A stretch of 64,000 nucleotides of DNA, from the NCBI RefSeq assembly GCF_001482285.1, contig NZ_LOEP01000014.1, forward strand, positions 1-64,000, written 5' to 3'. The translations under genes and the position numbers were made by a program. The notes beneath the pieces were generated by a model, which worked only from the letters and a program-made list of their open reading frames with translations, ran no database searches and was not told where the DNA came from. Shown here in pieces: positions 4,904 to 38,847 of this stretch (the first letter of the stretch is position 1; every line of letters starts with the position of its first letter). Source of the stretch: Haloferax sp. Q22. GTDB taxonomy: Archaea > Halobacteriota > Halobacteria > Halobacteriales > Haloferacaceae.

Positions 4904-5218
4904 TCACTGGAGGGGCTGGGCGTCGCCGATGGGGACCACTTCAATAGAACCGAGCGCGTCGAGCGTCACGCGGTAGCCCGCGTAGGAAAACGAGAGGAGC
5001 GCGTCCTCAGAACAGCCGAAGACCGTTTCGAGGGCGTCGGGGTCGATAGTCTGTGCGAGCGGCGGGAGCTGCGTCGGTCGGACGCCCTCGATTGCCGCAA
5101 TACTCAATACAACGTTCGTGCTTAGGAGCTCGGAAGAGTCGCGGTCGACGCGGTATGACCCGGTCGACTCGTCGTACGTCACGCGCGAGTCCTTCCAGTC
5201 GTTCGTCTGTGCCATCAT
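4904..5218 (-). CDS. HalOD1 domain protein
   Basis: About 104 residues; two adjacent ATGs (5218 and 5215) are possible starts. The segment STNVVLSIAAIEGVRPTQLPPLAQTIDPDALETVF, followed by LSFSYAGYRVTLDALGSIEV, is the haloarchaeal output domain HalOD1. This domain is found alone or fused to receiver domains and is thought to act in signalling output. No partner domain is present and neighbours are unrelated, so its input is unknown. Confidence 0.85.
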   Translation of the reverse strand: MMAQTNDWKDSRVTYDESTGSYRVDRDSSELLSTNVVLSIAAIEGVRPTQLPPLAQTIDPDALETVFGCSEDALLSFSYAGYRVTLDALGSIEVVPIGDAQPLQ

Positions 5219-33496: not shown

Positions 33497-33781
33497 TTAC
33501 TGGATGTGGCCTTCGCGCCGGAGCTGGTCCGCGTCCTCGCCGGTGTATCGCCATTCGATGTTGGCTTTCTCGTCCTGCCAGTCCCACGGTTCGACGAGCA
33601 CGACGTCGCCCTCGTTGATCCACGTGCGGTACTTCATGCGGCCGGGGATGCGGCCCATGCGGTTCTTTCCGTCTTCACAGCGGATTCGGACGTGATTGCC
33701 ACCGTTGTGCTCTGTGACGACTGCGAACAGCTCGTTGTCGTTGGGCATTCGAAGGTTTCGACGCCCTTGATTTTCACTCAC
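33497..33781 (-). CDS. eif1A: Translation initiation factor aIF-1A
   Basis: 94 residues of the S1/OB-fold initiation factor 1[88 protein letters not shown]. It binds the ribosomal A site region and promotes 43S-type complex assembly and start-codon selection. It is a complete, normal-length copy lying within the origin region, with ORB elements on both sides. Haloarchaea may carry more than one copy; whether this is the main one cannot be told here. Confidence 0.95.
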
Positions 33782-33892: not shown

Positions 33893-34046
33893 TCCGACAG
33901 ATTAGCCGCCGATAGGGATTGGTTCGTGGCCACACACCACGCAGTTTCGCTCGAGGCCTCATTTTAGGATACCGATCGTGATCGGTTATCACCGAGTCGT
34001 CGCTGAAGCGGTCGGACGGGTCGCGGGGGAGTCGAGGATCCCCTGC

Positions 34047-34068
34047 AACACCACTATGTCCGCAGTTG
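34047..34068 (+). repeat. ORB element (variant)
   Basis: AACACCACTATGTCCGCAGT then TG; one change in the GCTGTT arm (GCAGTT). Confidence 0.7.
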
Positions 34069-34396
34069 TTCGTCGACTCAGCCCCTGCAAAGACGCTTTC
34101 TCCAGGTCGTGAGGTTCCACCGAGCCACGAAGGACAGACGTCGTCGGTAGACGAGGCGTCGGTAGACGAGTCACTTCCACAGTATCGCCGCTATCACCGC
34201 CGCGGTTGCTCACGTCCCTCTCGGTCACGTGTTCTCTCTCGGAGCGTTCATAGGAGTCAAGCGGAGCGGGAACCGAGAGTACGGGTTCGGGTGAGCAGGC
34301 AAGCGAAGCGGTCGGGTCGACGCGGTCGCGTGAGAACCAACGACGCGTTTGTGTGACAATCGCTTCAGTACGTGTTCAGTGGGTATTTCGTAGGAA

Positions 34397-34473
34397 TGTT
34401 TGATTGGTGTTTGATTGGTGTTTGATTGGTGTTTGATTGGTGTTTGATTGGTACTCTATTGGTACTCTATTGG
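34397..34473 (+). repeat. Seven tandem 11-bp direct repeats in the origin
   Basis: Five perfect copies of TGTTTGATTGG start at 34397, 34408, 34419, 34430 and 34441. Two copies of the related TACTCTATTGG follow at 34452 and 34463. The 11-bp spacing is close to one helical turn, so the repeats present the same DNA face. They end 17 bp before an ORB element. They may be initiator-binding iterons or a bent/unwinding element. Confidence 0.9.
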
Positions 34474-34489
34474 TTTGATGGTTGACACC

Positions 34490-34511
34490 CACACCACTTT
34501 GTCCGCTGTTC
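34490..34511 (+). repeat. ORB element
   Basis: CACACCACTTTGTCCGCTGT then TC; full core with one change at the first base. Confidence 0.8.
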
Positions 34512-34559
34512 TCGGTGAGTGTGAACGTAGGGGTGAGACGGTGTGAAACGGGGAACACT

Positions 34560-34581
34560 CACACCACTTTGTCCGCTGTTC
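34560..34581 (+). repeat. ORB element
   Basis: A second copy identical to the 34490 element, 70 bp to the right. It is the innermost right-facing copy beside the AT-rich block. Confidence 0.8.
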
Positions 34582-34647
34582 TTGGCGTGAGGCGGTACCC
34601 CCCTTCGTCGTGAGTTGGTTCTCTCCCGTCGGTTTTCAATCAGTCGG

Positions 34648-34776
34648 GTTAGTTTAGATTCCTGCAGAGATGAACAAAAAGGGTCGTCTCCAAACAGCCC
34701 TCATACAATTACTATAATTGCCTGTATTACGGACTTAGTTTAAGCTATTATATATTAAATCTTTCTCTATATCAAA
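34648..34776. other. AT-rich DNA-unwinding element
   Basis: A marked AT-rich block (for example ATTATATATTAAAT near 34747-34760) in a GC-rich genome, bounded by inward-facing ORB elements. This is the expected place for duplex opening by Orc1/Cdc6 and MCM loading. Confidence 0.75.
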
Positions 34777-34822
34777 GCACGCGGTTCCGTCCAGTTGTTC
34801 CACCGGTTACCTTCGTTTCCCA

Positions 34823-34844
34823 GAACAGCGGACAAAGTGGAGGG
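34823..34844 (-). repeat. ORB element, right arm of the origin
   Basis: GAACAGCGGACAAAGTGG matches the reverse consensus; the last four bases diverge. It faces the 34560 copy across the AT-rich block. Confidence 0.75.
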
Positions 34845-34862
34845 GGTGTGTCCCCGGTCGAG

Positions 34863-34869
34863 TATATAA
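34863..34869 (+). promoter_or_regulatory. orc1: TATA box of orc1/cdc6
   Basis: TATATAA in a stretch of mixed sequence predicts a start near 34893, just at the end of a degenerate ORB element (34877-34898) and ~43 nt before the ATG. Confidence 0.55.
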
Positions 34870-34876
34870 AACACGA

Positions 34877-34898
34877 GAACAGCGGACACTCCGGACAC
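34877..34898 (-). repeat. Degenerate ORB element over the orc promoter
   Basis: GAACAGCGGACA is perfect; the distal half (GTGGTGTT) is altered. It lies between the orc TATA box and start codon, so Orc binding here could repress its own gene. Confidence 0.55.
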
Positions 34899-34935
34899 GG
34901 TGGTTTTATCAACGAAGTGGTCGAACCGTGGTAGT

Positions 34936-36186
34936 ATGCCCCTATTCGAGCGGGACACCGAGATCTATCGGGATCGGGACGCCCTCCGCGAGGATTACCA
35001 GCCCGAGGAACTCGTGGGGCGCGACGAGGAACTCCGTACCTTCCAGGCTGCGCTGCAACCGGTTATCAACGGCGAACAGCCCAACAACATCTTCCTCTAC
35101 GGGAAGACCGGCGTCGGCAAGACCGCCGCGTCGCGGTACTTACTCGGGCACCTCCGTGAGGACGCGAGCCACTACGACGACATCGACCTCAGGGTCGTCT
35201 TCCTGAACTGCGACGGACTCACGAGTTCGTATCAGATCGCGACCCGACTCGTCAACGAGTTCCGTTCGGAGTCGAACCAGATCAGCACGACGGGCTACCC
35301 GCTCGGGTCCGTCTACGAGATGCTCTGGCAGGAACTCGACGACTGCGGCGGGACGATAATCATCGTTCTCGACGAGATCGACCACGTCAACGACGACAGT
35401 ATCCTCTATCAACTCCCGCGGGCCCGCGCCAACGGGAACCTGGACGTCGCGAAAGTCGGTCTCATCGGCATCTCCAACGACTTCTCGTTCCGCGACGACC
35501 TCTCGCCGAAGGTCAAAAGCTCCCTGTGCGAACAGGAGATTCACTTCCCCGCGTACAACGCCAAGAACCTCCGCGCCATCCTCGAACAGCGTGCCAAGGT
35601 TGCGTTCCGCGAGGGCGTCCTCTCCGACGAGGTGATTCCGCTCTGTGCCGCCTACGGCGCGAAAGACGCCGGTGACGCCCGCCAGTCCATCGACCTGTTG
35701 ATGAAAGCCGGCGATTTGGCCCGCGACGACGACACCGACCGTATCGAGGAGGAACACGTGAAACGCGGTCGGCGCGCCCTCGAGCGGGGCCGCATCAAAG
35801 AGGGAATCAACGGATTGACCGAACACGGTCACCTCGTCCTCTACTCGCTTCTGACGCTCGAGCTGGAAGACGAGACGCCGATTCGCTCCCGCGACGTTCG
35901 GCCCCGATACACCCGGTTTACCGAACTCGCCAACCGCGACCCGCTCGTCCCGCGACGGATGCGCGACCACCTCAGCGAGCTCGCGATGCTCGGAATCGTC
36001 TCCGTCACCGAGCGAAACGAGGGCCGACGCGGCGGGACGTACCGCGAGTACGCCCTCGATATGGACGTCGGGCTCATCGTCTCGGCCATGCGCGACACCA
36101 TCGAACTCGTGGGCGTCCACGAGACGGTCGAACCCTTCCTCGACGGTGAGAAGACGAGCACGCTCGACGATTTCATCCAGCAGTAG
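34936..36186 (+). CDS. orc1: Orc1/Cdc6 replication initiator
   Basis: 416 residues from ATG 34936. The AAA+ module has Walker A GKTGVGKT (residues ~56-63), Walker B TIIIVLDEIDHV (~145) and sensor 1 LIGISNDFSF (~180). Arg-rich sensor 2 and a C-terminal winged helix (SRDVRPRYTRFTELANRDPLVPRRMRDHLSELAMLGIVSVTERNEGRRGGTYREYALDM) bind ORB DNA. It begins inside the origin it should recognise, flanked by ORBs on both sides. Haloarchaea have several orc paralogues, each matched to its own ORBs, so the number suffix is not certain. Confidence 0.95.
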   Translation: MPLFERDTEIYRDRDALREDYQPEELVGRDEELRTFQAALQPVINGEQPNNIFLYGKTGVGKTAASRYLLGHLREDASHYDDIDLRVVFLNCDGLTSSYQIATRLVNEFRSESNQISTTGYPLGSVYEMLWQELDDCGGTIIIVLDEIDHVNDDSILYQLPRARANGNLDVAKVGLIGISNDFSFRDDLSPKVKSSLCEQEIHFPAYNAKNLRAILEQRAKVAFREGVLSDEVIPLCAAYGAKDAGDARQSIDLLMKAGDLARDDDTDRIEEEHVKRGRRALERGRIKEGINGLTEHGHLVLYSLLTLELEDETPIRSRDVRPRYTRFTELANRDPLVPRRMRDHLSELAMLGIVSVTERNEGRRGGTYREYALDMDVGLIVSAMRDTIELVGVHETVEPFLDGEKTSTLDDFIQQ

Positions 36187-36201
36187 ACGACCCGACTGAA
36201 A

Positions 36202-36223
36202 TTACTGCGGACATGATGGTGTT
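36202..36223 (-). repeat. ORB element
   Basis: TTACTGCGGACATGATGGTG then TT, 16 bp after the orc stop codon. Confidence 0.6.
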
Positions 36224-36357
36224 AGTCTCGAACCCACCTCCGTCGGAGCGGTTCTCTGCCGTGTTTTGGAAGTGGTTGCTACTTCGATTCGTTCTTCAGC
36301 AGCATGCGTTCGTTCGGGTTCACCGACCGATTTCGTTACCGATTTCCGACCGCTCGG

Positions 36358-36379
36358 AACACCACGATGTCCGCAGTAA
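36358..36379 (+). repeat. ORB element
   Basis: AACACCACGATGTCCGCAGT then AA. Confidence 0.7.
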
Positions 36380-36403
36380 ATCGGCTATTTTCGCCGCTTG
36401 TTC

Positions 36404-36425
36404 GAACAGCGGACAGTGTGGTGTT
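36404..36425 (-). repeat. ORB element (perfect)
   Basis: GAACAGCGGACAGTGTGGTG then TT; a full match to the reverse consensus, facing the 36358 copy with 24 bp between them. Confidence 0.8.
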
Positions 36426-36486
36426 TCTAACTTACGCGACCAACTGTTCACCAGATAGCGGCCATCTCAGCGGCTCGCTAGCCGTA

Positions 36487-36508
36487 CAACAGCGGACATA
36501 CCGGTGTT
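36487..36508 (-). repeat. ORB element (variant)
   Basis: CAACAGCGGACATACCGGTG then TT. Confidence 0.6.
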
Positions 36509-36559
36509 CGATGTCGCGTCTTTCCACGTTCGAAAGCGACGTTCACTCCGCGTCTGCGA

Positions 36560-36581
36560 CAACAGCGGACGCCGCGGTTCT
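36560..36581 (-). repeat. Degenerate ORB element
   Basis: CAACAGCGGACGCCGCGGTT then CT; the core AACAGCGGAC is kept and the distal part is altered. Confidence 0.5.
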
Positions 36582-36657
36582 CAGCCGTCGTTTTCTCCGT
36601 TCCGCTGTCGGTTGTCATCGAGCGTTTCGATAACCGGCCGGCGGACTGTCGGTCTCG

Positions 36658-36679
36658 AACACCACATTGTCCGCTGTTC
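36658..36679 (+). repeat. ORB element (perfect)
   Basis: AACACCACATTGTCCGCTGT then TC, just beyond the end of the parA-partner gene. Confidence 0.8.
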
Positions 36680-36719
36680 TCCGGATGTTCGAGTCGGTTT
36701 TGTTCGACTCTTCGGCTTC

Positions 36720-37298
36720 TCACTCCTCGCGAGTTTCGAGGACGGCGTCGGCGATTTTCTCGGGATACTCGGCGGCGACGCGGACGAGAGCGTCGTGGAA
36801 CTCGCGGCCGGTCAGGTCGCGCACGTCGTGTTCCCGGCGGAGGTGCGATTCGACCTCGAACTCGGCGTCGTCCAGTCGGTCGAGCGTCGCGGTTCGGACG
36901 TAGATGCTTTTCGCGGTCGTCGCCTCGAACTCGAACGCCGGACCGCCCGCTGCCTCCGTCGTCTGCTCCGTCTCGTCGATGCTTTCCGGGCCGTCTTCTT
37001 CCGCGGTCGACTCGGCCGGCTCTCCGGGTTCATCGCGTTCGCTGCTCTCGGCGGTCCCACTGCTTTCGCCCGCGTCGTCACTCTCGCTCGTTTCGTCTGA
37101 CTCCGAGGCGGCCTCGGGGTTCGAATCGGGCGCAGCGTCGCCCTCGGACTTGGGTTCGACTGCTGGTTCGGATTCCGACTTCTCAGACCCGTCGGGGGTG
37201 TCTTCGCCCGGGGGCTGCTCGTCGTTGGGTTCTGCGTCTGATTCCGATTCCGATTCCATCGCCTCGCCGAGGCCGGCGAACCGGTTTTCCTTAGGCAT
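36720..37298 (-). CDS. Acidic ParA-partner protein, candidate centromere-binding protein
   Basis: 192 residues. Residues ~12-120 are an Asp/Glu/Ser/Pro-rich segment that is probably disordered. The C-terminal ~70 residues are folded: AKSIYVRTATLDRLDDAEFEVESHLRREHDVRDLTGREFHDALVRVAAEYPEKI. A short beta strand followed by two helices is like a ribbon-helix-helix DNA-binding unit, an inference from pattern only. The start overlaps the end of parA by 8 bp, the usual position of the ParB-like partner. It has no ParB nuclease-type motif. It may bind the repeat tract upstream of parA. Confidence 0.8.
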   Translation of the reverse strand: MPKENRFAGLGEAMESESESDAEPNDEQPPGEDTPDGSEKSESEPAVEPKSEGDAAPDSNPEAASESDETSESDDAGESSGTAESSERDEPGEPAESTAEEDGPESIDETEQTTEAAGGPAFEFEATTAKSIYVRTATLDRLDDAEFEVESHLRREHDVRDLTGREFHDALVRVAAEYPEKIADAVLETREE

Positions 37299-38118
37299 CG
37301 TCGGTTCCTCCGCGTTCGACGATCTCCGCGAGCTGGTCGAGTCGGTCGAGCATGTCGTTCGACGGGTCGTACTCCCGGAGGGTCTTCCCGTCGCGCCAGG
37401 CGCGACTGAACGCGATTCGGTGTCTGATTCCCGGTCCCTTGGAGTCGGGGTCGTCGAACAGCTCCGAGCGGGCGAACGGGGGGATGAACTGCTCGAAGGG
37501 AGAGTCTTCGAGGTCGCGAATGATGCGCTTTTCTTCGTTGTTCCCGGTGAGGTCGTTGGGGACGATAGCGAGAATGTCGAGGTCGACCTCGCGGCGAATC
37601 GGTCCGATTTGTTGTTCGAACATCCGCTCGAAGCCGCTCACGCTCGGCTCGCTCATGAGGAGCGGAACGACGACGTTCCCGGTTCCGATGAGCGCCGCGT
37701 CGGACAGCGGGCCGAGGCTCGGCGGCGAGTCGATGACGATGTAGTCGTACTCGTCGTCGTCCAAGAGCGGGTCGACGATTCGGCGGCGGACCCAGAGCAC
37801 GCCGAACGTCGAGTTCCGGACTCGGTCTTCGATATCGTCGAGGTCGACGTGGGCGGGAAGCACGTCGAAGCCCTCGCGGTCGCGTATCACTTCGCGCACG
37901 TCCACGGGCTCGTCGTCGGTCAGCACGTCGCCGACGTTCGGCTCCGACGACTCGTAGGCGTCTTTCATCCCGACGCCCTCGGTCGCGTTCCCCTGCTGGT
38001 CGAGGTCGACTAAGAGCACGTCGTTCCCCCGTGCGGCGAGCGCGTCGGCGAGGTTGATGGCAATCGTCGTCTTTCCGACGCCGCCTTTCTGGAGCGAGAC
38101 GCTCACGGCTCGCGACAT
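37291..38118 (-). CDS. parA: ParA-family partition ATPase
   Basis: 275 residues. The deviant Walker A KGGVGKTT occupies residues 11-18, followed by DVLLVDLDQQGNAT (A') and YDYIVIDSPPSLGPL (Walker B). ParA ATPases bind DNA non-specifically when ATP-bound and move replicons by interaction with a centromere-bound partner. No N-terminal HTH domain is present, so regulation would come from the partner, as in small ParA (type Ib) systems. The gene is the first of a two-gene operon and begins 27 bp from the 9-bp repeat tract. Confidence 0.93.
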   Translation of the reverse strand: MSRAVSVSLQKGGVGKTTIAINLADALAARGNDVLLVDLDQQGNATEGVGMKDAYESSEPNVGDVLTDDEPVDVREVIRDREGFDVLPAHVDLDDIEDRVRNSTFGVLWVRRRIVDPLLDDDEYDYIVIDSPPSLGPLSDAALIGTGNVVVPLLMSEPSVSGFERMFEQQIGPIRREVDLDILAIVPNDLTGNNEEKRIIRDLEDSPFEQFIPPFARSELFDDPDSKGPGIRHRIAFSRAWRDGKTLREYDPSNDMLDRLDQLAEIVERGGTDDA

Positions 38119-38144
38119 CTATCGAGCCTCCTGCGGAGCGCGAT

Positions 38145-38767
38145 GTTCACAAATTGTACACAGTCTACGCTGTGTCTGCCGTTTGGGCGGTGCAAACTCC
38201 GTTTGAACTGTGGACTGTGCGGACATTTGAGGGACTTGAACGGACCTTCCGCGGCGTACCACATAATTTTATCCACGACTTTTGAACCGTTGGGACTGCT
38301 TCTACATTCTACAAATTCTACAATGTTTACAAATTTTAAAAATTGTAAACTGTCGCCTGTCGCCTGTCGGTATCCGGTGATTCGCCTGCGCTCTCCGTTT
38401 GTGGACTGTTTCAGCTTCGTCCGGGGCGTTCGGTTTCCAAACATCGCTCGCGATCTGCGAATCTTTCACACTGTGCGAATCTTTCGCGGTGTAGACTACC
38501 TCAACACTCCACAACCTCTATACTTCGTGCAAATTCTACAATTTGTACACGTTCTACACGGTCTGGAACTCGTAAGCGGTGCGAACTTCCCAGACGGTTT
38601 CAGATTCCTCCACCGTTCGAACCGTTTGGAGTGCTTCGGCAGTCTGCACTCTCTTCGCTGTTTCCACTGCGCTCGAAGTTCACGCTCTCCTCGAAGTCTG
38701 CACTGTCACCGCAGTTTACACCATCCTCGAAGTCCGCCCGGTGTCGACTGTGCGAACTTCGTTCCGG
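38145..38767. repeat. Tract of imperfect repeats in 9-bp register upstream of parA
   Basis: Cutting the sequence every 9 bp from 38145 gives units such as GTTCACAAA, TTGTACACA, GTCTACGCT, GTGCAAACT, and TTCTACAAA at 38307 and GTTTACAAA at 38325. From about 38453 the register is shifted by 2 and continues: TCTTTCACA, GTGTAGACT, TTCTACAAT, GTGCGAACT, GTCTGCACT (38642 and 38696), GTTTACACC, GTGTCGACT. Nearly all units have a pyrimidine, usually T, at position 2. Loose consensus GTYTNCACT, about 69 units. It fills the whole gap before parA and is probably a centromere; see findings. Confidence 0.75.
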
Positions 38768-38825: not shown

Positions 38826-38847
38826 ATACTGCGGACACAGTGGTGTT
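38826..38847 (-). repeat. ORB-like element, outlying right copy
   Basis: ATACTGCGGACACAGTGGTG then TT, between the repeat tract and msrA. With the 33369 copy it brackets the whole origin/partition module. Confidence 0.65.

Follow-up and report, generated by a model that had tools for sequence, protein, structure and literature searches.

A 9-bp repeat array beside parA as a candidate centromere of a Haloferax megaplasmid

Introduction

The ParA(delta)-ParB(omega)-parS system of plasmid pSM19035 belongs to partition type Ib and contains 7-bp heptads (WATCACW), 7-10 units in number (PMC9499535), of which at least four contiguous ones are required (PMC9499535). Type Ib also comprises ParF-ParG-parH of TP228 and ParA-ParB-parC of pCXC100, where a repeat centromere is located directly upstream of the par operon; parC consists of direct repeats only (PMC5016525). 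In the Sulfolobales, SegB of the SegAB system is a chromosomal ribbon-helix-helix protein which binds to imperfect palindromes (PMC12284271, PMC5120986), and the Sulfolobus plasmid pNOB8 encodes a three-protein partition system, ParA-AspA-ParB (PMC9178275). A 2016 review listed among the open questions how halophilic archaea segregate their chromosome and several megaplasmids, what form archaeal centromeres take, and whether these are clustered or dispersed (PMC5120986).

The preliminary description of the tract analyzed here knew of no such array in haloarchaea. A search of the open literature likewise revealed none, which is weak evidence of novelty as subscription papers were outside its scope.

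Results

Periodicity and organization of the tract

The tract occupies the gap between parA and msrA in the window, i.e. the whole 64-kb stretch of DNA that was analyzed. Autocorrelation of positions 38145-38767 peaked at lags 9, 18, 27 and 36, with matches of 0.38-0.41 and z values of 7.2-8.7 relative to dinucleotide shuffles; with lags 45 and 54 included, identities of 0.35-0.41 and z values of 5-9 were obtained (dinucleotide-preserving shuffles). The Fourier spectrum of this interval has a single dominant line at 9.0-9.05 bp with a power of 15.5, compared to a maximum of 4.4 for any period in 200 shuffles. Comparable 9-specific periodicity was absent from the remainder of the 64-kb window, where the runners-up were coding stretches. 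The proposed 9-bp register was thus borne out.

Since 9 bp equal three codons and an open frame of 211 aa spans the tract, it might be regarded as coding sequence of a repetitive protein. However, identities at lags 3 and 6 were below expectation with the same shuffles, demonstrating that the period does not reflect codon structure. The frame is open because a unit read as nGT nYR nAC yields stops rarely or never, and in Haloferax orthologs it is interrupted by 1-7 stops. Owing to the deficit at both lags and these stops, a coding function was rejected. A decaying tandem duplication without function, on the other hand, would not have retained its register across dozens of diverged lineages whose units differ. 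The probability that the tract is either of these is negligible.

A profile HMM for the array, trained on seven Haloferax upstream regions, was applied to the window by a Viterbi parse. It returned three array segments with 57 complete 9-mers (consensus nGTnYRnAC), separated by a gap and an out-of-register stretch:

38138-38232, no strand: array segment 1, nearest to parA, flanked by the TATA-like site and the start codon of that gene (HMM parse)
38233-38271, minus strand: array gap with the TATA-like sequence ATAAAATTATG, to which the HMM assigns no array state (sequence)
38272-38353, no strand: array segment 2, AT-rich, with units such as TTCTACAAA and GTTTACAAA (PWM scan and HMM parse)
38354-38397, no strand: out-of-register stretch with three copies of the heptamer CTGTCGC, containing the slip (TRF and HMM parse)
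38398-38762, no strand: array segment 3, comprising about 40 units and showing an 18-bp super-period (Fourier, PWM scan and HMM parse)

Judged from its sequence, the TATA-like gap is probably the parA promoter. A PWM scan of positions 38121-38237 gave a score of 32.5, while the sampled chromosome did not exceed 9.2. The array contains about 60 units in total, not about 69 as counted before, and the earlier division of the whole parA-msrA gap into 9-mers applies to the three segments but not to positions 38233-38271 and 38354-38397. Within the latter stretch the register shifts from 3 to 5 (mod 9), which is the 2-nt slip that had already been noticed. Positions 2 and 4 of the unit are nearly always pyrimidines and position 7 is nearly always a purine; the T or C reported for position 2 was found in 57/57 complete units, a count that is somewhat flattered by the motif-fitted parse. 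Throughout the tract, the maxima of T and A are in antiphase, at a distance of approximately 4.5 bp. The unit is therefore a near-palindrome and the tract reads identically from either strand. In the distal array (38450-38767) the 18-bp period is stronger than the 9-bp period, as though two unit classes alternated.

ParA and its partner protein

Two overlapping genes of the same orientation were identified beside the tract:

37291-38118, minus strand: parA, encoding a Walker ATPase of the ParA/AAA_31 family of 275 aa without N-terminal HTH (Pfam AAA_31, E=2e-35; ORF)
36720-37298, minus strand: partner gene, encoding a predicted centromere-binding protein (ORF; 8-bp overlap with parA)

In the parA product, AAA_31 starts at residue 3 and KGGVGKTT is located close to the N-terminus. 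The partner possesses an N-terminal MPKENRFAGL motif with the conserved NRFAGL, an acidic low-complexity linker, and a C-terminal domain made up of a KSIYVR strand segment and helices. In type Ib systems, a flexible N-terminal tail of the partner activates ParA through an arginine finger; the arginine of NRFAGL, a candidate for this role, is absent from the partners of Halobacterium, Halocatena and the system's own paralog, which start like MSDDDPFADL. In the Haloparvum partner gene (L026, ~4950-5150), the acidic linker includes a tandem SSSDPT-type hexapeptide, corresponding to an 18-bp coding repeat.

Comparison of the partner with Pfam, NCBIfam and PHROGs gave no match above chance, and neither Pfam nor NCBIfam contained a ParB match that would point to a ParB/Noc fold. 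A profile search against solved structures (PDB) detected no match, including none to SegB, and a Foldseek search of PDB and viral models found no match and no ribbon-helix-helix. Relatives in phage records were not found. The AF2 models show an unordered strand segment followed by helices of 21-22 and at least 14 residues, the first of which is unusually long; they represent the monomer, in which an intertwined dimer cannot appear. In a haloarchaeal survey, the family was present in 176/391 genomes and 55/86 genera, while it was not found in the sampled non-haloarchaeal members of the phylum. The sequence comparisons suggest that the partner belongs to an undescribed family that is apparently restricted to haloarchaea.

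Conservation of the array and covariation with the partner

ParA orthologs from named genomes and parA-partner pairs from the 391-genome survey were compared. The order of parA followed by the partner gene is kept in nearly all haloarchaeal loci examined. For each locus, the best period among 4-20 was determined in a fixed 150-bp interval preceding parA, taken without selection. It was 9 in 69/85 and 18 in 8/85 haloarchaeal parA-partner loci, together 77/85, though these loci are not independent. By contrast, only 4/31 bacterial parA loci had a best period of 9 or 18, and positions far upstream of parA on these contigs gave mainly multiples of three, as is typical of coding DNA. The register beside parA is hence conserved in relatives. 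Contrary to the earlier assumption, neither the unit nor the length of the tract is unusual: 9 bp is the rule among haloarchaea, and most arrays of Haloferax and Natrialbaceae extend over 430-870 bp in register.

The spelling of the unit varies by system. It reads nGTnYRnAC in both Haloferax and Natrialbaceae and CTATTCnnr in pNRC100 of Halobacterium, while a paralog array in the genome from which the window comes (contig C31) has AATTATTTG-like units. The tract of H. mediterranei can be aligned with that of the window over 150 bp only (73%) and still contains ~73 units, indicating that the register is conserved but the bases are not. Between close Haloferax species, indels in multiples of nine are over-represented among the longer indels only, and as the species pairs are not independent, this was not counted as evidence. 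Arrays on chromosome-size contigs are shorter (median ~140 vs 368 bases, p=0.0015). An initial assumption that chromosomal copies have lost the array was only partly true, as shorter arrays are retained. The orthologs of Halolamina and Haloparvum have kept the partner but few units, which counts against the centromere reading, while the ParA ortholog of Halospeciosus (L044) has neither a partner gene nor an array.

In some Haloferax, a second parA system of the C31 type (L159 = G078:C2:294703; G244:C3:43554) has its strongest array downstream of the partner gene rather than upstream of parA. In pNRC100 (L088), the 230 bp before parA contain CTATTC upstream of a TATA-like TTATAAG and inverted GAATAG downstream, so that the orientation flips at the promoter.

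Covariation between array and partner was analyzed with 58 dereplicated systems by cross-scoring of array models and 2000 permutations. The cross-score correlated with identity across the seven residues at the strand by which the partner is predicted to contact DNA (r = 0.69). When identity in the rest of the domain was regressed out, the correlation was r = 0.44 with p = 0.0005 (the permutation minimum), a procedure that reduces shared ancestry but does not remove it. In pairs less than 45% identical elsewhere in the domain, the mean cross-score rose from -0.02 to 0.26 with growing strand identity. Apart from a remaining share of common ancestry, this covariation, along with the partner-less ParA that has no array, is the best non-experimental evidence that the partner may read the array.

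The replicon and its putative origin

The region around the partition genes contains the following elements:

34900-36186, plus strand: orc1/cdc6 replication initiator gene (Pfam Cdc6_lid and Cdc6_C; the H. gibbonsii pHG2 ortholog is annotated likewise)
34042-36683, no strand: putative replication-origin region with about ten ORB-like repeats GAACAGCGGACAnnGTGGTGTT in both orientations around orc (repeat search)
38826-38847, plus strand: outlying ORB-like repeat just past the array (repeat search)

The window aligns with the complete 336-kb plasmid pHG2 of H. gibbonsii, suggesting a megaplasmid of about 330 kb as host replicon. The nearest orthologs (at least 60% identity, plasmid collection) are on circular plasmids of 100-505 kb. 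Orthologs reside on complete megaplasmids, where they adjoin orc in Haloferax, and others, e.g. in Halolamina (L045) and Halospeciosus (L044), on chromosome-size records. Near the putative origin, a probable eIF-1A gene is located at 33497-33781 and annotated likewise in pHG2 and pHME505. Upstream of orc, beside ORB-like repeats, positions 34397-34474 comprise five exact copies of TGTTTGATTGG (11-bp tandem, TRF) followed by the diverged ATTGGTACTCT, an iteron-like arrangement.

The outlying repeat places the array within the span of the ORB-like repeats and, together with the partition genes and orc, in an origin/partition module. This position, 2-4 kb from orc, would also suit a part of the origin itself, such as iteron-like sites or an unwinding element bound by Orc1/Cdc6. 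However, the array tracks the parA-partner pair rather than orc, being present without nearby orc in the stretches shown of Haloterrigena pHTUR04, Salinigranum and Halostagnicola. Moreover, its unit covaries with the partner strand and the ORB-like repeats differ from it in sequence. A role of the tract in replication instead of partition is thus highly unlikely.

Satellite arrays

Whole-genome searches with a 5-unit palindromic pattern, allowing at most two mismatches, detected the main array, single sites at C6:128243 and C56:43509 and, on contig C31, the paralog array and C31:44353. A reversed control pattern gave 0 matches in the whole genome. Contigs C6 and C56, like the window, align to pHG2, so the array and the satellites on these two contigs share one megaplasmid. 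In a motif scan, the array scored 32-38 and the satellites 17-19, while 340 kb sampled from a Haloferax chromosome yielded at most 9.2 and no satellites. Column-permuted motifs peaked at 17.7 on the plasmids scanned (arrays included), a value close to the scores of two Haloferax satellites, for which reason synteny is needed in addition to the score to support the weaker satellites. The MFS/VOC satellite has counterparts at the equivalent position in H. gibbonsii and a further genome (G266) and a diverged one in H. alexandrinus; the Usp/IclR satellite recurs, more weakly, in H. gibbonsii and H. alexandrinus. Three Natrialbaceae plasmids have a syntenic satellite in common, with scores of 34-48 where the chromosome reached 8.9 at most. 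It lies by a PAS/GAF-domain gene, 0.43-0.47 of the circumference from the main array (L223, L225, L226), and it is possible that this nearly opposite position marks a terminus-side site. A candidate satellite of N. bangense (125663) was discarded because it failed to score under the motif model. Nearly all satellite-type sites lie on the replicon that carries the system, one pattern match on a chromosome (G244:C1) being a counter-example.

These sites bear on the question whether the partner merely represses parA and a few other genes, in which case the long array would be a multi-site operator that plays no part in segregation. In favor of this, array units stand on both sides of the probable parA promoter, the array is near the start codon of parA in those lineages that were compared, and several satellites are located upstream of genes. 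An array of 430-870 bp, however, far exceeds the needs of an operator, and a regulator does not require the near-confinement of its sites to its own replicon. In addition, the Usp/IclR site and the site at 104465 of Halostagnicola are gaps between convergent genes and therefore unlikely to be promoters. A purely regulatory function of the array is accordingly improbable.

Discussion

As far as sequence comparisons can tell, the tract is very likely to be both centromere and operator of a plasmid ParA system that resembles type Ib and has a new predicted centromere-binding protein. The centromere and operator function proposed in the preliminary description is strongly supported by conservation beside parA in different haloarchaeal families, covariation with the partner and satellites on the same replicon, but the partner, envisaged there as ribbon-helix-helix, matched no known family or structure.

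In the most probable account, the tract serves the megaplasmid as centromere while its parA-proximal end acts as operator. Partner dimers, possibly of the ribbon-helix-helix type, would bind to successive near-palindromic 9-bp units via the KSIYVR strand. Each dimer would be turned by about -51 degrees relative to the previous one, which might result in a left-handed protein filament around the DNA. By analogy to bacterial type Ib systems, the N-terminal NRFAGL tail may contact nucleoid-bound ParA-ATP and trigger hydrolysis, by which the plasmid would be moved or spaced along the nucleoid. Units flanking the parA promoter could mediate autorepression, and the few short satellites on the same replicon may provide extra centromere sites. 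The spelling of the unit and the matching strand residues might define replicon identity and thereby permit several systems per cell. Haloferax is polyploid; an active centromere may be less important there than in low-copy systems.

Long runs of 9-base units beside partition genes, whose system-specific spelling tracks the predicted DNA-contact segment of the partner, are what a replicon-specific centromere is expected to look like. The arrays are concrete centromere candidates in dozens of genera, including the genetically tractable Haloferax and Halobacterium pNRC100, and thus provide an experimental target for the sorting of many replicons in salt-loving archaea. With sequence predictions for both the DNA site and the protein contact, centromere function, specificity swap and plasmid incompatibility are directly testable.

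Of the traits of type Ib, the locus displays a small ParA ATPase without N-terminal HTH, a small partner whose gene follows directly, probably within one operon (8-bp overlap and gene order), and a run of contiguous short repeats that precedes both genes and whose centromere role is predicted. The ParB/Noc-fold partner of type Ia/chromosomal ParABS and the SegB homology characteristic of SegAB were not found. Membership in type Ib is incomplete, as a ribbon-helix-helix could not be demonstrated and the partner has no recognised relatives. We slightly favor an undescribed, haloarchaea-wide partition class, in which a new protein family would read 9-bp arrays, the spelling and strand residues would form an address code, and each megaplasmid would have its own main and satellite centromeres.

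The omega/heptad array of pSM19035 is the nearest model for the tract. What both have in common is a small ParA, a small partner, contiguous short units over the par promoters and several arrays per plasmid; most haloarchaeal sites comprise at least five units, compared to the minimum of four contiguous ones in pSM19035. Unlike the heptads, the haloarchaeal units are near-palindromic 9-mers, about 60 in number, and their spelling varies between systems. Satellites are located tens of kb away, and the partner, unrelated in sequence, has a long acidic linker. TP228 and pCXC100 share with the haloarchaeal systems the repeats directly upstream of the par operon; the flexible N-terminal tail of their partners may have an equivalent in the haloarchaeal partner. 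The repeat unit of pCXC100 parC is reportedly also 9 bp long. However, these systems are bacterial, their centromeres have far fewer repeats, and the haloarchaeal partner is without detectable homology to theirs. Like SegAB, the locus encodes an archaeal ParA and, just downstream, an archaea-specific partner whose DNA binding is predicted here, with sites upstream of the cassette, but the partner has no sequence match to SegB among solved structures. A relative of AspA or ParB of the pNOB8 type was not found here, and we know of no 9-bp array in pNOB8. What connects pNOB8 with the haloarchaeal system is the partition of an archaeal plasmid by ParA and a centromere-binding adaptor, the latter being predicted in the present case.
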